A DNA stretch of 63,610 nucleotides, from NCBI GenBank assembly GCA_016875015.1, contig VGSJ01000007.1, positions 1 to 63,610 on the forward strand. The letters are read 5' to 3'. Positions within the stretch are counted from its first letter, which is position 1. Every line of letters starts with the position of its first letter. This document shows positions 28,328-38,315 of the stretch, one piece after another. This stretch comes from Deltaproteobacteria bacterium. Lineage in GTDB: Bacteria > Desulfobacterota > Desulfobaccia > Desulfobaccales > 0-14-0-80-60-11. The notes below the pieces were generated by a model. The model did no database searches, had not been told where the DNA came from, and was given only the letters and a program-made list of their open reading frames with translations. Position numbers and translations under genes: made by a program.

Positions 28328-30751
28328 TCAGTAGAGCAGATACCTGGCGCGCAGCCGGCCGAAGGCTTCCAATCCGGGCTGCCACCGGCGTTCTATGACT
28401 CGCGGATCATCGCCGTTCTTGATGGCCTGGAGAACCTGGCGGGACCCGATCATGCCCACCGTTTTGTCTATCAGGAACTTCCCGGGATAGAGCCGGTAAA
28501 GCGCGGCCGCCAACTCTATCCCCAGGGCCGCGACATCCAGGGCGCCCCGGTCCACCACCTTCAGGCGGACGCCTTCGCACCGGTGATGGGCGTAGGGGCG
28601 GGCCGCCGGGGTGAAGGTCACGGGCTCGAACCCGACCCCGGGGAGGCGCCGCCCGCTCAAATAGCGGGCCAGCCGATCGCCCGAAATCCAGGGAGCGCCG
28701 ATGATTTCAAACGGCGTGGCGGTTCCCCGGCCGACGCTCACGTTGGCGGACTCGATCATGCCCACCCCGGGATAGAGGATCGCCTGGGTCAGGGACCGGA
28801 GGTTCGGCGACGGATTGACCCAACGCAAGCCGGTCTGGTCGAACCAGATCTGCCGCCGATACCCCTCCATGGGCACCACGTGCAATTTGGCCCCGATGGC
28901 CCTCTCTTTATTAAAGAGCTGGGCCAGTTCCCCCGCGGTCATGCCGTAGCGCACCGGCAGCGGGAAATAACCGATAAACGACTTCAAATCGGGGTCCAGC
29001 ACGGGTCCCTGCACCATAGAGGCCGTGATCGGGTCGGGGCGGTCCAGCACATAGAAGTCGAGGCCGGCGCCGGCCGCGGCCTCCATGGCATAGGCCATGG
29101 TGGTAATGTAGGTATAGAAGCGGGCGCCCACATCCTGGATGTCATAAACCAGGGCGTCCAGCCCCCGGAGCATCTCAGCCGTCGGCCGGGTGACTTTGCC
29201 GTAGAGGCTGTGGACGGGCAGGCCGGTAGCCGGGTCCTTCCCGGAGGCGACCTTCTCGTCGAGCTGGCCGGATAAGCCGTGCTCCGGGCTGAAAATGGCC
29301 TGCACCTTGACCCCGGGAGCCCGGAGCAACAACTGGAGGGTCGAGCGGCCGGACGCATCGATGCCCGTGTGATTGGTGATCACCCCGATCCTTTTGCCGA
29401 CGAGGGGGGCGAAACCGGACGCGGCCAGGACCTCGATCCCCGGCCGGACCCGGTCAGGCCTGTCGCTGGCGCCATGCCCCGTCATCGCCGGCTCGAGGCC
29501 GGCGTCACCCCAGGCGGCCACCGCCGGCGGCCCCATGGGCACGGCTTCGGCCACGGCCGCCGCGGTCTTGGCCCGCAAGGGTTTGACATTGCCTTTGCCG
29601 TTGGGGTGCAGGCGGGAGGTGAGAATGATCATAAACGTCTGCGAGCCGGGATCGATCCACATGGCGGTGCCGGTATAGCCCGTGTGCCCGAAGGAACCTT
29701 TCGGGAACGCGGCGTTGAAGACCCGGCTGTGAGTCGACCGGATGTCCCAGCCGAGGCCGCGCTGCGTGGAGATGCCCGGGAGGCGCTGCGCTTTGGTCGT
29801 GGCCGCGACCGCGGCGGGACTGAGAATACGCCGGCCCTGACTCTCGCCCCCATTGACGAGCATCTGGGCCAGGAGGGCCAGGTCGTCGGCGGTGGAAAAG
29901 ACGCCGGCATGACCGGCCACCCCGCCCATGCGATATGCGGTGGGGTCGGACACCACGCCCCAGCGCAGCCCGCTCCCCTGGTAGTCGGTGGGCGCGATGC
30001 GGGGTTTAAGCGCCGGCGACGGTCTAAACGACGTGTCCTTCATGCCCAGGGGTCCGAAGATCTCGCGTTTGCAGAAAACGTTCAGCGGCATGTGCGAGAC
30101 CCGGTGCACGATCTCGCCCAGCGCGATAAAATTGACATCGCTGTAATTGAACTGCGTACCCGGCGCCTTGACCGGGTGATCCTGGACAATAGCCGCCATC
30201 GCCCCGTCGTAATCCGACCAGGGGGGCCGGGAACTCACCCCGGCGCGCAAACCGGACGTGTGGGTCAGGAGTTGCCGGATGGTGATCGCCTCCTTGCCGT
30301 TGGCGGCAAAGGCCGGCCAATAGGCAGCCGCGGGTTTGTCGAGATGGATGAGGCCGCGATCGACAAGTTCCATGATCGCCGTGGCGGTGGCCACCACCTT
30401 GGTCAGAGAGGCGAGATCGAAGATGGTGTCCACCTTCATGGGCTGGGACCGGGGCGTAAGGGCGCTCTGGCCGAAGGCCTTGCGGTACACGGTCTTGCCG
30501 CGGTGGCCCACCAGGATGACGGCCCCGGGGACGTGCCCGGCGGCGACCTCCTGCTTGGCCACCTGGTCGATCTTGGCGAAGCGCCGGGCGTCCACTTCGG
30601 GGGGGGCCGGCGGCGCCGGTGGCTGCGGCTCCACGATGACCGGCGGCAGCGGCGGCGGCGCCGTGGCGCACCCGGCCAGACCTCCCAGGATGAGCGCCGC
30701 GGCGATAACGATATACGCAGCAAGAGACTTGGCGGAAGGCATCTGGGGCAT
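28328..30751 (-). CDS. lipoprotein fusing a beta-lactamase-fold hydrolase to NamZ-type exo-N-acetylmuramidase
   Basis: This 807-aa protein combines two cell-wall-related domains. Residues 1-28 are a lipoprotein signal with lipobox LAGC (Cys28), followed by a proline-rich linker. About residues 55-400 form a class C beta-lactamase-like serine hydrolase with SLTK (Ser115, Lys118), YSD (203-205) and HTG (356-358). From about 438 to the end runs a DUF1343/NamZ domain (RIGVITNHTG, FSPEHGL, YDIQDVGARFYTY). The founding NamZ removes terminal MurNAc from peptidoglycan fragments. In Bacillus subtilis the separate genes ybbC (namZ) and ybbE (beta-lactamase-like) are neighbours, so the fusion fits a muropeptide-salvage role. 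It should be anchored in the periplasm. Confidence 0.88.
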   Translation of the reverse strand: MPQMPSAKSLAAYIVIAAALILGGLAGCATAPPPLPPVIVEPQPPAPPAPPEVDARRFAKIDQVAKQEVAAGHVPGAVILVGHRGKTVYRKAFGQSALTPRSQPMKVDTIFDLASLTKVVATATAIMELVDRGLIHLDKPAAAYWPAFAANGKEAITIRQLLTHTSGLRAGVSSRPPWSDYDGAMAAIVQDHPVKAPGTQFNYSDVNFIALGEIVHRVSHMPLNVFCKREIFGPLGMKDTSFRPSPALKPRIAPTDYQGSGLRWGVVSDPTAYRMGGVAGHAGVFSTADDLALLAQMLVNGGESQGRRILSPAAVAATTKAQRLPGISTQRGLGWDIRSTHSRVFNAAFPKGSFGHTGYTGTAMWIDPGSQTFMIILTSRLHPNGKGNVKPLRAKTAAAVAEAVPMGPPAVAAWGDAGLEPAMTGHGASDRPDRVRPGIEVLAASGFAPLVGKRIGVITNHTGIDASGRSTLQLLLRAPGVKVQAIFSPEHGLSGQLDEKVASGKDPATGLPVHSLYGKVTRPTAEMLRGLDALVYDIQDVGARFYTYITTMAYAMEAAAGAGLDFYVLDRPDPITASMVQGPVLDPDLKSFIGYFPLPVRYGMTAGELAQLFNKERAIGAKLHVVPMEGYRRQIWFDQTGLRWVNPSPNLRSLTQAILYPGVGMIESANVSVGRGTATPFEIIGAPWISGDRLARYLSGRRLPGVGFEPVTFTPAARPYAHHRCEGVRLKVVDRGALDVAALGIELAAALYRLYPGKFLIDKTVGMIGSRQVLQAIKNGDDPRVIERRWQPGLEAFGRLRARYLLY

Positions 30752-31002: not shown

Positions 31003-31464
31003 ATGAAGTTTGAACACGTTCCTGAACACATTCTGGAAATGTATGAAAAAATAAGATCTCAACATTTTCCTCATTTGGCTAATGCGAAGATTCTTTTCCT
31101 GCTTAATAAAAAGAAGATGATAAATAAAGGTAATATAACTCTTAGCAAAATAGTTAAACCTTCTGATCTGGTTAAATTTTTGTCCAAGGATGAAGCGCCA
31201 GAATATGGATATGATTATATCATACTATTAGATCAAAAATTGATTGCGCATTGCGATGATACGGATATTAAAAGAGTGTTGAGGCATGAATTGCGACATA
31301 CATTCTTTGATTCAGATAGTCTTAAAAATCCATACAAATTAGTAGATCATGACTTTAGTGATTTTTATGATGAAGTTGAATTAAATAAAGATGATCCAAC
31401 CTGGTCCAAGAGGGTATCTCAAACTGTGTCTCTCATGTATGACCAGGAAAAAGATGAGAAATAA
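31003..31464 (+). CDS. putative metallopeptidase, AT-rich
   Basis: This is a 153-aa protein with the zinc-peptidase motif RHELRHTFFD (HExxH variant reading HELRH), followed by LVDHDFSDFYDEVE, which could supply the third ligand. The arrangement resembles a group of small phage-linked putative metallopeptidases. The catalytic Glu is present in HELRH. AAGGAGA stands 8 nt before the ATG. The gene is strikingly AT-rich (Lys and Ile codons) beside a GC-rich genome, suggesting import from a phage or plasmid. No partner gene is adjacent. The substrate is unknown. Confidence 0.6.
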   Translation: MKFEHVPEHILEMYEKIRSQHFPHLANAKILFLLNKKKMINKGNITLSKIVKPSDLVKFLSKDEAPEYGYDYIILLDQKLIAHCDDTDIKRVLRHELRHTFFDSDSLKNPYKLVDHDFSDFYDEVELNKDDPTWSKRVSQTVSLMYDQEKDEK

Positions 31465-31561: not shown

Positions 31562-31830
31562 TCTTTGGTAGCACCGGTATCTTACCGGTGCGGGTGCACA
31601 GGTTGAAAACCTGTGCCACCAAGGGGGGCGGGCACGGAGGCCCGCCCCACCATCTTTTTCATGCTTTACGGGTGGGCCGATAGGCCCATGGGCAACTGCC
31701 TTGAAAAGTTCCATATCATGGTGCGCACCGCGCACCATGAGCTTATGGCAGCGGCGGGCGAGGACGCCCGCCCCACCGGATGTCGCATGATTTACCCGTG
31801 GGCCCAGGGCCCAGGCATGACTGCTCCGAA
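31562..31830. repeat. composite of several palindromic modules
   Basis: The order is GCACCGG/CCGGTGC, GCACAGG/CCTGTGC, GGCGGGCACGG/GGCCCGCC, then a GGGTGGGCC...GGCCCATG module, GGTGCGCACCGCGCACC, another GCGGGCG module and a second GGGCCC module. The first modules recur in a similar order at 47469-47610. With 31831-32024 it forms a long gene-free stretch. Confidence 0.75.
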
Positions 31831-32024
31831 ACTTTAACCAGGCTGCGATTCCTCCAGGTATAAGCGTCACTTCCTCCCCGGAGATCCTCATCCCCACTAG
31901 TCCAAAAACTTGGGAACCCCCGCCGCCCCGGGGGGCCAGAAATCCCGGCGGGGTGATTCTCCTCCCCCATCCCAACGATTCTTAAAGTTTTCGCTGAAGG
32001 CGCCGATACATACATCAGATAATT

Positions 32025-32120
32025 CCACGCCACCGACAAAGGCAAACTCCACCGAAAGGGGAGGACGCAAAGTCTCCGACCTACCGCCTGCGGGCTAAGG
32101 TAGCGGGATTACCGAAGTGG
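32025..32120 (+). promoter_or_regulatory. c-di-GMP-I (GEMM) riboswitch
   Basis: The aptamer features are present in order. P1 is CCAC/GTGG. The conserved GGCAAAC is followed by a GAAA-tetraloop stem (TCCACCGAAAGGGGA) and the tetraloop receptor-side sequence GGACGCAAAGTCTCC. P2 is CTACCGCC...GGTAG, and GGGATTACCGA closes it. These are the hallmarks of the GEMM-I class that binds cyclic di-GMP. It lies 173 nt upstream of the flp pilin gene and reads the same way, so it should control the Flp/Tad pilus operon. I see no clear U-tract terminator downstream, so the on/off mechanism is undetermined. Confidence 0.92.
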
Positions 32121-32293
32121 TGAAGGTGAGACTGCCCAATGGCAATCACCCATTGCAGAGCCCCTGACCGGTGAGCGGCGTGGATTCGCACCATAGCACA
32201 GGAGGTGGGAATCAAGAGCATCATCATCAGGACCGGCATGGGTAACAAACATTGGAGTGCAATTCTTAACCTTCAAAGTAAAGGAGAAGTAAC

Positions 32294-32467
32294 ATGAAAA
32301 CTTACCTGCGGAAAATCATGGCGTTCATCAATGATGAGGAAGGCGCTTCGGCCATCGAATATGCCCTTTTAGTCGCGTTGATCGCTTTGGCGATCACGGT
32401 GGGGGCGACGACCCTTGGCGGCAAGATCAATAATATGTTCACTAACGCCGCGGGCAAGCTGCCTTAG
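32294..32467 (+). CDS. flp: Flp-family type IVb pilin
   Basis: This 57-aa prepilin subunit of the Tad pilus was too short for a standard gene-length cut-off. The sequence MKTYLRKIMAFINDEEGASA is a basic leader ending in the prepilin peptidase site: cleavage is expected after the Gly in EEGASAIEY, leaving a mature protein that starts ASAIEYALL. The Glu at mature position 5 and the following Tyr are the Flp signature. A single hydrophobic helix and a short tail (NMFTNAAGKLP) complete it. AAGGAG lies 8 nt before the ATG. It is first in the tad operon, downstream of the c-di-GMP riboswitch and followed by a strong hairpin. Confidence 0.93.
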   Translation: MKTYLRKIMAFINDEEGASAIEYALLVALIALAITVGATTLGGKINNMFTNAAGKLP

Positions 32468-32494
32468 AGTTAACGGGCTGCCGGCTTGGCGGGT

Positions 32495-32526
32495 CCGGGG
32501 CCGAAGCCTCAGGGCTTCGGCCCCGG
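32495..32526 (+). terminator. 14-bp hairpin after flp
   Basis: A perfect stem CCGGGGCCGAAGCC / GGCTTCGGCCCCGG has a 4-nt loop and no T-run. It may act as an mRNA stabiliser or partial terminator giving more pilin than assembly proteins. Confidence 0.6.
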
Positions 32527-32690
32527 CCTTACCTGGAAAACCAGTCTTGCCAAACGGGGGACAGATGCCGGGTTGCCATCAGAGAGTTTTTTCTGGAGCC
32601 GCAGGCGAAAGCCTGGGCCCGCACCGGCGAGAGGCGCGGGCCACTTGTTTGAAGGCCCCTTATGAAAATATGAAAATATGAAAATAATCC

Positions 32691-32747
32691 GGTGGGGCGG
32701 GCCTCCGTGCCCGCCACCTCAAGGCGGCCAGGGACGGCCGCCCCACC
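32691..32747. repeat. palindromic repeat pair before cpaB
   Basis: GGTGGGGCGGGCCTCCGTGC with its inverse and GGCCAGGGACGGCC are the modules also found at 15164-15229. A three-fold TATGAAAA tandem (32661-32685) precedes it. Confidence 0.7.
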
Positions 32748-32777
32748 CGCGACTAATTTTTATGGAGTGACCACACG

Positions 32778-33593
32778 ATGCCTCGTTTACCCGGCTGGGC
32801 CTGGCTGCTTTTGGCCATTGGTTTCGCCACCCTGGCTTCTTATATGGCCCTGGGATGGCTAAAACGGCAAGCCGCCGTTCAACCTTCGGTCAAAGAGAAA
32901 ATCTATGTGGTGCGGGCCAGCGCCAAGGCGGAGAAGGACAGACCTCTTGCCGAGGCGCAACCCCAGCGCGTCGCCTGGGATAAGGATTATCCTCCCGAAG
33001 ATTTCTTTTCCGACCTAAAGCAGGTGGTAGGGCGGGAGACTGCGAAATCTCTGACGTCCGGTGATCTGATTACGCGAGAAAACACCAGAGAAAAACGGAC
33101 TGGGATCACTGCCGAGTTGAGCCCCAACCAGCGGGCCATGACCGTGAAGGTGGACGAAGCCTCCGGGGTGGCCGGCTTCCTGACCCCCGGAAACCGGGTG
33201 GACGTGGTGGTGGTCGTGGACAAGGGAGAATTCGACAAAGACCCGCTCGCCAAGCTCCTCTTGCAGAACCTGAAAGTTTTGGGCACCGGTCAAAATTTGG
33301 AAAATCGTCCGGGCGACAAACCCCAGATTGTGCCCACGGTTACGCTGGAAGTATCCCCCGAACAAGGAGAAAGTCTGGCCCTGGCTGCCCAGGAAGGGCG
33401 AATTTCGTTGGTGCTGCGGGGCAAGGGAGACCAACAACTGGTGGAAACCCAGGGGGCGGACGCCAGCAAGTTATTTGGCAGACCGAAGAAGGCAATCTCT
33501 CAGGCTCCCCCCGCCGCGGCCACTGTTGCTCCGCCGGCCCGGACGGTGGAGATGATCCGAGGATTGGAACTGGCGCCGGTGAACTTCCGGTAG
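32778..33593 (+). CDS. cpaB: Flp pilus assembly protein CpaB/RcpC
   Basis: CpaB is an envelope protein of Tad systems thought to stabilise the outer-membrane secretin. The 271-aa protein has one N-terminal membrane helix (about 6-25). A SAF-like region is followed by the typical block RAMTVKVDEASGVAGFLTPG, then RVDVVVVVD, and EVSPEQGESLALAAQEGRISLVLR, all characteristic of CpaB. The C-terminus is proline/alanine rich. No secretin gene (cpaC/rcpA) follows as would be usual; instead a 100-bp mobile element and cpaE come next. Confidence 0.92.
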   Translation: MPRLPGWAWLLLAIGFATLASYMALGWLKRQAAVQPSVKEKIYVVRASAKAEKDRPLAEAQPQRVAWDKDYPPEDFFSDLKQVVGRETAKSLTSGDLITRENTREKRTGITAELSPNQRAMTVKVDEASGVAGFLTPGNRVDVVVVVDKGEFDKDPLAKLLLQNLKVLGTGQNLENRPGDKPQIVPTVTLEVSPEQGESLALAAQEGRISLVLRGKGDQQLVETQGADASKLFGRPKKAISQAPPAAATVAPPARTVEMIRGLELAPVNFR

Positions 33594-33597
33594 CTAA

Positions 33598-33697
33598 TAC
33601 CGTGTTCGTTTTGTAGGGGCGGGTTTGAAACCCGCCCCTACGAGAGATATCAATAGGTTATCTGGATGGTTTGTTTCATTTCAAAGGGAACACGGTA
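33598..33697. mobile_element. 100-bp MITE-like element, copy 2
   Basis: This copy is identical to 3651-3750. It is flanked by 3-bp direct repeats TAA (33595-33597 and 33698-33700). It is inserted between cpaB and cpaE, so it is transcribed as part of the Tad operon, and its GTAGGGGCGGG palindrome would form a strong mRNA hairpin. Confidence 0.88.
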
Positions 33698-33736
33698 TAA
33701 GAACCTAACCCGCTCAGGCTGAGGATCATAAACCGA

Positions 33737-34927
33737 ATGTCCACCCAATTCAGCATCTATTATAGTTCCCTGGAAAACAAGGAATACCTCCGGCAAATTG
33801 TCGAAGCCTCCGGTACCGGGAAGTTAGTGGAGAGCAACGATCTGGCCCATTTGCCTTCCCAGGCGGTGAATGGCAGCGATGTGGTCTTTTTGGAATATCA
33901 GGAAAACAATCCTGAATTGGACCTCTGGATCGAGAGAATTGCGGCCAACCCCAGGAGTCCCGCCATCTTCCTTTACTTTAAGGAGATCTCCACCAACAAC
34001 TTGTGGAAGGCGATTCGCCTGGGAGCTAAGGAATGCTTTACCTTCCCTATCCAGGAGGAAGATTTTCAACAAGCGGTAAAGCGCATCTGGGCCCGGACCG
34101 AAGTCAGGAAAGGTTCGGCAAAACCCACCCAAATCATATCTTTTCTCGGGTGTAAGGGAGGAGTAGGGACCACCTTCCTGGTCGCCAATCTTGCCAGCCT
34201 CCTGGCGCAGGAGCGCCGCGGCAAGGTGCTGTTAGTGGACTTGGATCTGGGATTTGGCCAGCTTAACTATTTTTTCGATGTCCATCCTGAACACACCTTG
34301 ACCGAAGTAATCGAAAATCTGGAACGATTAGACAATAATTATTTACAAAATATCTTCTGCCACATCGGTGATAATTGTTATTTGCTTCCGGCTCCGGCCC
34401 GTTTGGAAGAAGCCGAGATCATTAAAGCCGACCACCTGGAGAAGATTATCAGCTACCTCAAGGAAAACCTGGGGTTCCGGTGGATATTGATCGACTGTTG
34501 TCATCAACTTGATGAAATAACCATGAAGGCCCTGGAGCTCTCCGAATCCTTGATGCTGGTGACCGCGCAATCAATTCCGGCCCTTTCCAACGCCAAGAAA
34601 ATGCTGGACATCCTTAACCTCCTGGAATTGAGGGAACTCGAAGTTGAGGTCTTGGTAAATTGCTGGAACCGCCAAAATGAATTGAGCGTTGCTGACGTGG
34701 AAAACTTTTTAGGGAAGACGATTGCGGGCACCATAACGTGTGATTACCAACAGGCAAGTTTAAGCGTCAACGAAGGCAAACTCCTGGTTTCGACCTCTCC
34801 CCGCCATCCCATATCCGGAGACCTGAAATTGATAGCCGGAAAAATCAGCCCGGAGGACACGCCGGAGGAAACCAACCACTCGGGGTGGAAATGGCTTCAG
34901 CGTCTCTGGAGCAAGAAAAAACCATGA
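33737..34927 (+). CDS. cpaE: Tad pilus localisation ATPase CpaE/TadZ
   Basis: TadZ proteins combine an atypical receiver domain with a MinD/ParA-like ATPase and place the pilus machine at the cell pole. The 396-aa protein has an N-terminal receiver-like region (1-120). The deviant Walker A motif CKGGVGTTF follows (about 139-147), then [10 protein letters not shown] as Walker A' partner, and [10 protein letters not shown] as the Walker B region, where the usual DTP is replaced. The C-terminus is Trp/Lys rich. Its TGA overlaps the cpaF ATG (ATGA). Confidence 0.92.
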
Positions 34928-36294
34928 GCCTCCTGGACCGCATCCGCCAACGGCAATTAGAGGAGCAAACGGGCCAGTCCGCGACCTATGGCCAAGACCA
35001 GAAAAAAGATCGGGAGCGGCAAAAGAAAGACGATGTCTTCAATGAATTGAAGGCGAAGATCCACATGAAGCTCCTGGGCTTGCTGGACCTCACCCGCCTG
35101 ACGGCAGCCTCAGAGGGTGCGATCCAAGAAGACTTGCGCCGGGGGGTCGAGATGATCCTGGCGGAAGAGAAGATACCCCTCGCCTCGACTGAAAAGGACA
35201 GGCTCTGTCGGGAGATCCGGCATGAGCTTTTGGGGTATGGGCCCCTGGAACCCCTCCTGGCGGATTCCAGCATTAACGATATTCTGGTGAACAGCTACAG
35301 CAAGGTGTTCGTGGAACGTCGCGGCAAGCTGGAACCCTCGATCATCCGATTTACCGACAACGCCCATTTGCTCAAAATCATTGAAAAGATCGCTTCCGGG
35401 GTGGGACGCCGCATCGATGAATCCTCTCCCATGGTGGATGCCCGACTGCCGGACGGCTCCCGGGTCAATGCCATCATCCCCCCCCTGGCCCTGGATGGAC
35501 CGGCCCTCTCCATCCGCAAATTTGCCCGGGACCCCATAAAAGTAGAAGACTTGATCGGTTTCGGAGCCATCACCGAGGACATGGCCGAGGTCCTCCACGG
35601 CATGGTGCAGGCCCGTCTTAACATCCTGATCTCCGGCGGCACCGGCACCGGGAAAACCACTTTCCTCAATGTCTTGTCCAGTTTCATCCCCAACGATGAA
35701 CGCATCATCACCATTGAAGATTCCGCCGAACTCCAGTTGCAGCAGGACCATGTGGTTCGACTGGAAACCCGCCCCCCCAACCTGGAGGGTCAAGGAGAGG
35801 TCGATCAGCGTGATCTGGTCCGGAATGCCTTGCGCATGCGGCCCGATCGCATCATCCTGGGTGAGGTGAGAAGCGGCGAGGCCCTGGACATGCTCCAGGC
35901 TATGAATACCGGTCACGACGGTTCCCTGGCCACCATTCATGCCAACTCCGCCCGGGATGCCCTCACCCGTCTGGAAACCATGGTTTCCATGGCCGGCCTC
36001 AATATCCCCGAGCGGGCCATCCGGCATCAGATAACCTCTGCCATCAATGTCGTGCTGCAACTGGCCCGGTTGAGCGACGGCAGTCGCAAGATGATGAACC
36101 TCTTTGAGATCGTCGGCATGGAAGGTGACATGATTACCATGCAGGAGATCTTTGCTTACAACCTGATGGGGCTCACCGAGGATAAGAAAGTGCTGGGCCG
36201 CTTTATGGCCACCGGCATCCGTCCCAAGTTTATGAAACGCCTGGAATCTATGGGCCTCAAGTTGCCCAGCAGTCTCTTCAAGGAGCATGCCTAA
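34924..36294 (+). CDS. cpaF: Tad pilus assembly ATPase CpaF/TadA
   Basis: CpaF/TadA is the hexameric secretion ATPase that powers Flp pilus extension. The 456-aa protein has the N-terminal helical domain, the conserved [19 protein letters not shown] segment, Walker [10 protein letters not shown] (about 238-246) and the Asp box [29 protein letters not shown] (Walker B) and the His box [12 protein letters not shown] complete the set. I set the start at 34924, translationally coupled to cpaE, because the upstream in-frame ATGs lie inside that gene. Identification is certain. Confidence 0.96.
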
Positions 36295-36391
36295 GCTGAT
36301 GATGGCGGGAGATGTCCCTTAAACCATACTTCTAAACCTGGCGTCAACCCCGCCCTGGACCCCGGGGGAGATGTCCGCCAGGGAGGCATTG

Positions 36392-37384
36392 ATGGCCGGT
36401 GAATTGTTTCACTCCCTAGATTATTCTCTCCTGATTCTGATTTGCTTGATCTTCCTCAGCTTTTTTTTCCTCATAAGGGGCATCTTCTTGTTCCTGGCGA
36501 ACCCGGAACGGCTTCACCAGCGACGGTTAAAGAAGAGACTCAGAGAAATGGAGGGCCTACAGTCGTCCCTCAACGCCAGCACCCTCCTTAAAAAGGCCAG
36601 CCTGGAAAAATCCGCTCTCGACCGGATACTGAGTAAATTCAGTTTAGTTAACCAGATTCAGACCATGATGCTTCAGGCGAACCTGCACTGGAAAATGGGA
36701 ACCTTTCTGGTTCTCGTCGCTTTCTCCGGGCTGGCGATGGGGGGGGTGGGACTGGTGAAATGGGGTGTTTGGGGGGGCCTGGCCGGCGGCGGGCTGGGTT
36801 TGCTCCTGCCCTATAAGATTTTGGCCCGCAAAAGGAATCGGCGGCTCAAAAAGTTTGAAAAGCAACTGCCGGATGCCTTGGACCTGCTGGCCCGGGGACT
36901 CAGGGCCGGCCATGCCTTTCCTACGGGGTTGCAGCAGGTGGCCAAAGAGATGGCCGATCCCCTGGGAACGGAGTTTTTCGAAACCTTCAGGGAATTTAAC
37001 CATGGTTTGGACCTGAATACCGCCTTGCTCAACCTTTGTCATCGCATCAAACTGCAGGATCTGAACTTTTTTACGACAGCAGTTTTGATCCAGAGGGAAA
37101 CCGGAGGCAACCTCACGGAGATTTTAGAGAAGATCTCAATCCTCATTCGGGAACGATTCAAGTTGCGCAATCAGGTTAAAGCGTTAACCGCGGAGGGCCG
37201 ACTGTCAGGGCTTATCCTCCTCCTCCTGCCACCGGTGCTGGCCGTTCTTCTGATGGCGGTCAACCCGGAGTACGGATCACAACTGTTTACGCATCCGACG
37301 GGTCAGATCATGTGTGGGGTGGCGGTGGGATTTCAGCTGTTGGGCATGTGGGCTATCCACAAGATTGTCAACATCAAGGTGTAA
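36392..37384 (+). CDS. tadB: Tad inner-membrane platform protein TadB
   Basis: TadB and TadC together form the inner-membrane platform that the ATPase drives. The 330-aa protein has an N-terminal membrane helix (about 12-34), paired helices in the middle (LVLVAFSGLAMGGVGLVKW), a type II secretion F-like cytosolic domain with LPDALDLLARGLRAGHAF, and membrane helices at the end. The ATG at 36392 has AGGGAGG at good spacing; the one at 36371 is too close to its purine run. It follows cpaF after 97 bp. Confidence 0.93.
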   Translation: MAGELFHSLDYSLLILICLIFLSFFFLIRGIFLFLANPERLHQRRLKKRLREMEGLQSSLNASTLLKKASLEKSALDRILSKFSLVNQIQTMMLQANLHWKMGTFLVLVAFSGLAMGGVGLVKWGVWGGLAGGGLGLLLPYKILARKRNRRLKKFEKQLPDALDLLARGLRAGHAFPTGLQQVAKEMADPLGTEFFETFREFNHGLDLNTALLNLCHRIKLQDLNFFTTAVLIQRETGGNLTEILEKISILIRERFKLRNQVKALTAEGRLSGLILLLLPPVLAVLLMAVNPEYGSQLFTHPTGQIMCGVAVGFQLLGMWAIHKIVNIKV

Positions 37385-37385
37385 C

Positions 37386-38315
37386 GTGGAAATCTTACAG
37401 GCGGTTCTCTTTGGACTCTTGATCGGCGGCATGATCACCTTCCTGGGCTTTTTTCTTCAGCAGCGCTACTCCGCGGTGCGGCGGCGGCTTCAGTCTGGCC
37501 CACGCTTAAAAACCGATTTAATGCGGCCTCAAATGGAAGACAAACCTGCCTTCATAAGTTCCAACCTGGCCGAAAAGCTTGAAAAGAAACTCGATCTGAG
37601 AAAAGACGGGCCCACGATCAAACGACTCCAGGCAAAGCTCATCCAGGCCGGAATTTACACTGAACGGGCCATCCCGCTGTTTCTCGGGGTCAAAATGGGG
37701 GGACTGCTGGTTCTGCCGTTATTGGTCTTATTCATACTGTGGGGGAGCACCAGCGAGCGCAGCCTGTTGATGGGGATTCCCATCATCCTTTGCACCTTAG
37801 GATATGTTCTCCCGAATTTCATCCTGAACCGGATGATAAGTTCCCGGCATAAAAAAATTCGGGAGGCGCTCCCCGATGCCTTGGACCTGCTGGTGGTCTG
37901 CGTCGAAGCCGGCCAGGGTCTGGACGCCGCCATCAAGCGGGTGTCGGACGATTTGCAGGAAAGCAGTCCCATCATTGCCCAGGAATTGATCCTGGTGAAT
38001 CTGGAGACCATGGCCGGGCTGGACCGCCAGCAGGCCTTGAAGAACCTGGGGGACCGGACCGGGGTGGAAGAGTTGGTTTCCCTGTGCAATGTCCTCATCC
38101 AGAGCGAACGCTTCGGGACCAGTATCGCTCAGGCCCTCAAAACCCAATCAGATTATTTACGCACCGCCCGGCGTCAGAGACTGGAGGGCTTGGCTGCCAA
38201 GACCCCGGTCAAACTGGTTTTCCCGATGCTGCTCTTCATTTTTCCGGCCATCATGGTAGTTCTCTTGGGACCGGCGATTATCCGGCTCTCGGAATTCTTC
38301 AACAAGGGCGGGTAA
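37386..38315 (+). CDS. tadC: Tad inner-membrane platform protein TadC
   Basis: This is the second T2SF-like platform protein, 309 aa. It begins with GTG one base after the tadB stop, with AAGGTG upstream. It has an N-terminal helix (VEILQAVLFGLLIGGMITFL), two central helices, the cytosolic domain with ALPDALDLLVVCVEAGQGLD, and a C-terminal helix (FPMLLFIFPAIMVVLLGPAI). It is the last gene of the cluster. A strong terminator follows, and TadD, TadE/F and TadV homologues are not present nearby. Confidence 0.93.
   Translation: MEILQAVLFGLLIGGMITFLGFFLQQRYSAVRRRLQSGPRLKTDLMRPQMEDKPAFISSNLAEKLEKKLDLRKDGPTIKRLQAKLIQAGIYTERAIPLFLGVKMGGLLVLPLLVLFILWGSTSERSLLMGIPIILCTLGYVLPNFILNRMISSRHKKIREALPDALDLLVVCVEAGQGLDAAIKRVSDDLQESSPIIAQELILVNLETMAGLDRQQALKNLGDRTGVEELVSLCNVLIQSERFGTSIAQALKTQSDYLRTARRQRLEGLAAKTPVKLVFPMLLFIFPAIMVVLLGPAIIRLSEFFNKGG

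Follow-up and report, generated by a model that had tools for sequence, protein, structure and literature searches.

The window analysed here, a 63,610-nucleotide (nt) stretch of the genome of a Deltaproteobacteria bacterium (contig VGSJ01000007.1, to which coordinates without a contig handle refer), contains a class I cyclic di-GMP (c-di-GMP-I) riboswitch aptamer between a sigma-28-type promoter and the flp pilin gene of a Tad/Flp (type IVb) pilus operon. Our reading, to which we assign a probability of about 0.6, is that the sigma factor FliA (sigma-28) drives transcription of the flp-tad operon and that the aptamer gates the transcript by exchanging one strand between its P1 helix and a downstream anti-P1 segment. 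RNA polymerase with FliA would start from the promoter 21 nt before the aptamer. Binding of c-di-GMP to the emerging leader would lock the 5' strand of the aptamer into P1, and without ligand anti-P1 would capture that same strand and leave the binding site unfolded. The choice would be read out further downstream, at translation or at elongation, with no intrinsic terminator in this genus. Sigma-28 activity and c-di-GMP would be two inputs converging on one pilin gene, and FliA would have outlived the flagellum in the genus, perhaps because it still serves an attachment operon.

A class I c-di-GMP aptamer upstream of a Tad pilin gene

A search with cmscan against Rfam returned a full-length match to RF01051 (c-di-GMP-I, GEMM-I) at 32031–32116 (+), covering model positions 1–87 with 73.7 bits (gathering score, 35 bits) and an E value of 1.4e-12, the top-scoring of 12 RF01051 matches in the genome. 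This was the covariance search proposed in an earlier note on the same DNA, which had recognized GEMM-I hallmarks in a 96-nt leader beginning at 32025. We located all of these hallmarks: GGCAAAC at 32041–32047, a GNRA tetraloop (GAAA) in the P2 loop, GGACGCAAAG at 32063–32072, and TACCGA at 32110–32115. The aptamer itself stood, at a size of 86 nt rather than 96, and the start of the leader RNA probably lies near 32015, judging from the promoter described below. With residues numbered after PMC3764141, the c-di-GMP pocket is fully represented by G20 (32041), A47 (32069), and C92 (32112), together with the pairs G14–C93 (32035–32113) and G21–C46 (32042–32068).

The residue at position 20 bears on the identity of the ligand. 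Position 32041 is G and not the A that distinguishes GEMM-Ib, and the cyclic GMP-AMP (cGAMP)-binding mutant reported earlier is G20A (PMC7288161), so the window aptamer is predicted to prefer c-di-GMP. We consider it very improbable that the ligand is instead cGAMP, as for many Geobacter pilus and cytochrome genes. GEMM-Ib riboswitches do precede Geobacter genes for pilus assembly (PMC6456294), and position 20 acts as a selectivity factor and not as a hard filter (PMC9262584), but cGAMP is disfavoured by G20 in the window, a residue shared by the other flp leaders.

To place the aptamer in a comparative context, 40 genomes (this one and relatives) were searched with RF01051 and with the Flp family PF04964 and the coordinates were paired, linkage being scored when an aptamer lay no more than 400 nt upstream of a Flp gene on the same strand. 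In the window, the end of the aptamer and the flp start codon are 177 nt apart. Linkage was found in 18 of 22 genomes and in seven of nine genera of the bacterium's family, yielding 19 flp leaders because one genome (G010) contributes two. In two genomes of the sister family (G025 and G028), the gene behind the aptamer is TadE-like and lies at a distance of about 2 kb from Flp, and a strong terminator accompanies the aptamer. Because the aptamer-flp pair recurs so widely, riboswitch control of the Tad pilin in the window is very likely. The covariance score, the pocket residues, and this linkage together give good support to the central proposal of the earlier note, namely that a c-di-GMP-I riboswitch is placed to control a Flp/Tad operon.

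A sigma-28-type promoter and FliA without a flagellum

A near-perfect sigma-28 (FliA)-type promoter, TAAAGTTT-n11-GCCGATAC, occupies 31983–32009 (+; octamers at 31983–31990 and 32002–32009). Scored against the Escherichia coli consensus TAAAGTTT-n11-GCCGATAA (PMC2859248), it agrees at 15 of 16 positions with an 11-nt spacer, a score unreached in 300 shuffles, and would place the transcription start at about 32014–32018. The corresponding promoter of a congener (G002) agrees at all 16 positions, and all 21 Tad-linked leaders score between 12 and 16, compared with a shuffle mean of about 9. In the leader alignment, the aptamer was preceded by TTaAaG and by an invariant CCGATA in 19/19 flp leaders. 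The motif also followed the type of aptamer. CCGAT[A/T] was present within 45 nt upstream of 28/37 aptamers with the G21–C46 pair and of 0/47 with the swapped pair C21–G46; TTGAC showed the opposite distribution (2/37 versus 30/47), as did a U-tract just after the aptamer (7/37 versus 42/47), and since these sequences are related, p values for the comparison are indicative only.

One result counts against this assignment: the exact promoter pattern is also found once elsewhere in the genome (C32:19224). This copy lies inside an open reading frame (ORF), and we rejected it as a second sigma-28 promoter and attributed it to chance. Such a recurrence would agree with a scheme in which the aptamer controls flp behind a sigma-70-type or activator-dependent promoter, the sigma-28 motif being a coincidence or an unrelated conserved DNA site. 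This scheme appears improbable, however, given the correct spacer and invariant core in every flp leader, from flagellate and flagella-less genomes alike, and the lack of the motif upstream of the 47 swapped-pair aptamers, which often carry TTGAC instead. With this promoter ahead of the aptamer and FliA encoded in the genome, the operon probably receives a second input from a dedicated sigma factor, and the suggestion in the earlier note that control is exerted without a protein regulator is not supported.

FliA is encoded at C53:3526–4206 (TIGR02479, 261 bits; cut-off, 189.6) next to a gene for a MinD/FlhG-like ATPase, and the two genes stand side by side in flagellate relatives too. Flagellin (PF00669) and FlhA (PF00771) were absent from this 99.96%-complete genome in searches that were both positive in control genomes; the congeners gave the same picture. 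FliA was retained and FlhA not found in eight members of the family (G000, the genome under study, with G001–G003, G007, G010, G011, and G015), among which the assemblies of G001 and G003 reach only about 72% completeness; in flagellate family members, FlhA is encoded 2–3 kb from FliA on the same contig. It seems that this bacterium lost its flagella and kept the flagellar sigma factor. The unit of sigma-28 promoter, aptamer, and flp is present in flagellate and in flagella-less genomes, and the simplest reading is that it arose in flagellate ancestors; where the flagellum was lost, the unit may keep FliA under selection. This pattern suggests that an old control of swimming was reused for the control of attachment. 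We advance tentatively, at slightly less than even odds, the fuller proposal that FliA was retained after flagellum loss because it had come to transcribe an attachment operon, the mRNA of which is also gated, without a terminator, by a c-di-GMP riboswitch through P1/anti-P1 exchange.

A conserved anti-P1 segment as a candidate switch

The P1 helix spans 32030–32120 (+), with 32030–32035 paired to 32113–32114 and 32117–32120 and with 32115–32116 bulged (six pairs, all checked), and it covaries in the leaders of G010, G025, and G028. An anti-P1 segment at 32169–32184 (+), 53–68 nt past the aptamer, can form 12 base pairs with 32024–32035 around a 4-nt bulge (32169–32173 with 32031–32035 and 32178–32184 with 32024–32030; pairs checked), in a manner mutually exclusive with P1. 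For an RNA ending at 32190, fold prediction of the ligand-free form gave a free ensemble rich in anti-P1, with an advantage of about 13 kcal/mol over the P1-constrained ensemble.

Anti-P1 forms a conserved block in the leader alignment. Most relatives carry CUCGGUG, the exact complement of the first seven nucleotides of the aptamer (CACCGAG), and 13 of the 19 core helices are identical; in the genus of the window bacterium, the pairing is displaced by a few bases yet retained. The complementarity exceeded that of dinucleotide shuffles (p ≤ 0.05) in 18/19 flp leaders, the remaining one being a G010 leader (p = 0.17). Joint changes affect the 5' strand, the 3' strand of P1, and the anti-P1 region (CAUCG, AUGG, and GAUG) in each of the two G010 leaders. 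The anti-P1 segment, by capturing the 5' strand of the aptamer, is thus likely to be the switching element. The earlier note had called the switching mechanism unclear; this segment now supplies a likely element.

No terminator-like site was found on the + strand between 31900 and 32800, in agreement with the earlier remark that no obvious terminator separates the aptamer from the pilin gene, and an intrinsic terminator was accordingly rejected as a candidate for the window. The riboswitch might nevertheless act by transcription attenuation at an intrinsic terminator, as many GEMM-I RNAs do, with anti-P1 in a secondary role, since a strong terminator stands behind the aptamer in G014, G020, G025, and G028, and terminators also stand behind nearly all swapped-pair aptamers. 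We regard this as unlikely for the window, because its congeners likewise have no terminator-like site on the + strand and because anti-P1 is conserved more widely than any terminator.

Several results weigh against the mechanism of strand exchange with c-di-GMP as the activating signal. Anti-P1 is near-invariant in most leaders and true covariation is limited to a few events, so the covariation support for it appears modest. The energies of the P1 and anti-P1 states were on average similar in full-length folds, and in the full-length fold of the window other long-range pairs outcompete anti-P1, which would make a co-transcriptional decision more plausible than an equilibrium one. Between the two states, the flp ribosome site changes little in accessibility, and G014 and G020 have terminators that would suit an OFF switch.

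In such an OFF switch, c-di-GMP binding would repress the pilin and anti-P1 would stabilize the expressed state. When P1 is open in G014 and G020, the nucleotides immediately following it could base-pair with the 5' arm of the terminator, so that the ligand-bound form would be the one to terminate. Terminators of this kind are missing in the window, however, the flp ribosome site was slightly more open with P1 in 15/19 leaders in the fold comparison, and attachment is usually favoured by c-di-GMP; we therefore consider the OFF direction possible but somewhat doubtful. We favour activation at high c-di-GMP, a guess that we hold at moderately better than even odds.

Sequestration of the Shine-Dalgarno sequence was considered as the read-out and set aside, the difference between the P1 and anti-P1 states being too small to decide. 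A hairpin predicted at 32183–32192/32204–32213 (+) carries the Shine-Dalgarno-like AGGAGGTG in its loop and 3' arm and is confined to this genus (in G001–G003 by sequence). The AGGAGGTG block itself (32200–32207), an extended Shine-Dalgarno-like element with no start codon behind it, is found in most flp leaders about 75–90 nt upstream of the flp start and may act as a standby site for ribosomes. The idea that a leader peptide starts at the mid-leader GGAGGUG was rejected, as inspection by eye showed no reading frame common to the leaders.

The Tad operon, further aptamers, and relation to known systems

Pfam and NCBIfam matches confirmed the order flp, cpaB, cpaE/tadZ, tadA (cpaF), tadB, and tadC, all on the + strand (32294–38315), that the earlier note had read behind the aptamer. 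The joint presence of Flp, CpaB, TadZ-like, TadA, TadB, and TadC proteins identifies a Tad/Flp operon. The flp gene (32294–32467) encodes a 57-amino acid Flp/Fap pilin (PF04964, 57.2 bits) and is directly followed by a perfect 14-base-pair hairpin without a U-tract (32495–32526, +; −38.2 kcal/mol, z = −7.3), which possibly separates or protects the pilin mRNA. It is followed by cpaB/rcpC (32778–33593; TIGR03177, 191.7 bits, cut-off 71; PF16976) and by a cpaE/tadZ-type ATPase gene (33737–34927), assigned to TadZ from AAA_31/MinD-like (MinD/ParA-type) matches and synteny. The tadA/cpaF ATPase gene (34885–36294; T2SSE, 242.7 bits; TIGR03819, 344 bits, under the cut-off of 373) probably has its true start at about 34927. 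The tadB gene (36371–37384; T2SSF, 62.1 bits) is overlapped by the listed start of tadC (37314–38315; T2SSF, 62.0 bits), whose true start is probably further downstream.

No secretin, prepilin peptidase, or TadE/F/G was found in the window cluster, the secretin search not being extended to the genome. A second Tad cluster (C17:1–14000) encodes two Flp pilins and CpaB, CpaE-like, TadA, and TadB/C-like proteins, together with a possible prepilin peptidase and a two-component system, and has no GEMM riboswitch; a weak preflagellin-peptidase match lies near it. Around the leader, GC-rich repeats resembling repetitive extragenic palindromes (GGTGGGGCGGGC...GCCCGCC) occur at 31624–31651, 31753–31781, 32687–32718, and 32723–32747, in direct and inverted copies on both sides of the leader and between flp and cpaB. 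Just 5' of the leader, an ORF at 31003–31464 (+) contains a putative phage metallopeptidase domain (PF18894, 71 bits), and an 807-amino acid ORF at 28328–30751 (−) fuses a beta-lactamase-type serine hydrolase to both NamZ (exo-beta-N-acetylmuramidase) domains.

The eleven further RF01051 matches in the genome all carry the swapped pair C21–G46, keep G20 and A47, and have no sigma-28 motif; C92 is kept in the ten complete ones, and a U-tract follows closely in 10/11. Altered ligand specificity was rejected for these aptamers, as the change concerns the pair G21–C46 with G20 and A47 intact (PMC3764141 numbering) and part of the motif is widespread. In several of them, the 5' arm of the terminator is the aptamer's own 3' strand, and these are therefore predicted to be ON switches. 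For the five downstream proteins that were checked, matches to exosortase, PEP-CTERM, or VPLPA-CTERM families ranged from weak to clear. Ten of the aptamers (contigs C15, C16, C24, C32, C41, C64, C88, C90, and C92; loci L009–L017) mostly abut a terminator and precede signal-peptide proteins, several with VPLPxxxxLLGSGLLGL ends of the exosortase type; on C15, a tandem pair is separated by 281 nt. The best-scoring model for ten aptamers was RF03167 (c-di-GMP-I-GGC), although the consensus of that model has G47 and these have A47. The swapped-pair aptamer at C33:10769–10846, with about 110 nt downstream (L018), has its P3 interrupted by a long inserted hairpin, after which come its 3' half (GGTCGGGTTGCC) and a terminator. 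A group II intron D1–D4 match (137.5 bits; L016, 62–232, −) lies on C64, a contig with one swapped-pair aptamer. One genome thus holds two separate sets of c-di-GMP-I riboswitches, one associated with sigma-28 and Tad and the other with sigma-70-like promoters and secreted surface proteins.

Tad pili are widespread attachment organelles, and with a promoter of the flagellar sigma type followed by a c-di-GMP aptamer and a pilin gene, the motile-to-sessile decision would here be contained in about 300 nt; the arrangement offers a concrete reason for a flagellar sigma factor to survive loss of the flagellum. No Tad operon with a class I c-di-GMP riboswitch was described in the literature searched, which left most subscription papers outside, and an earlier mention of GEMM with Flp/Tad is possible; a literature search on FliA with Tad pili found no FliA-driven Tad operons among the papers listed.

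The window aptamer shares with the RF01051/Vc2 prototype its sequence, three-helix architecture, GNRA tetraloop, and pocket residues G20, A47, and C92; its expression platform differs in having no terminator but a conserved anti-P1, and its ligand binding is predicted. In Clostridioides difficile, a class II c-di-GMP riboswitch precedes the pilin gene pilA1, and high c-di-GMP favours pili (PMC6366702). In both cases a pilin gene is preceded by a c-di-GMP riboswitch; in C. difficile, however, the aptamer class is unrelated, the pili are type IVa-like, control is by transcription read-through, and the host is Gram-positive. The GEMM-Ib riboswitches for cGAMP that precede pilus and cytochrome genes of Geobacter (PMC6456294, PMC9262584) resemble the window in aptamer architecture, pilus-related targets, and a related phylum; the window differs by G20, by its Tad/Flp operon target, and by the sigma-28 promoter. 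The operon follows the Tad/Flp (type IVb) order from flp to tadC, in contrast to its lack of the secretin, prepilin peptidase, and TadE/F/G genes and to the C17 cluster, which has no riboswitch. As in sigma-28 class 3 flagellar promoters, the octamers and spacer conform to the consensus and FliA is encoded beside an FlhG-like ATPase gene, but here the promoter lies ahead of the leader RNA of a pilus operon, and flagellin and FlhA are missing from the genome. The aptamer and the pilus are thus of known kinds, and riboswitch control of pili is already known; what is new is the combination of sigma-28, a c-di-GMP riboswitch, and a Tad pilus in a flagella-less lineage.

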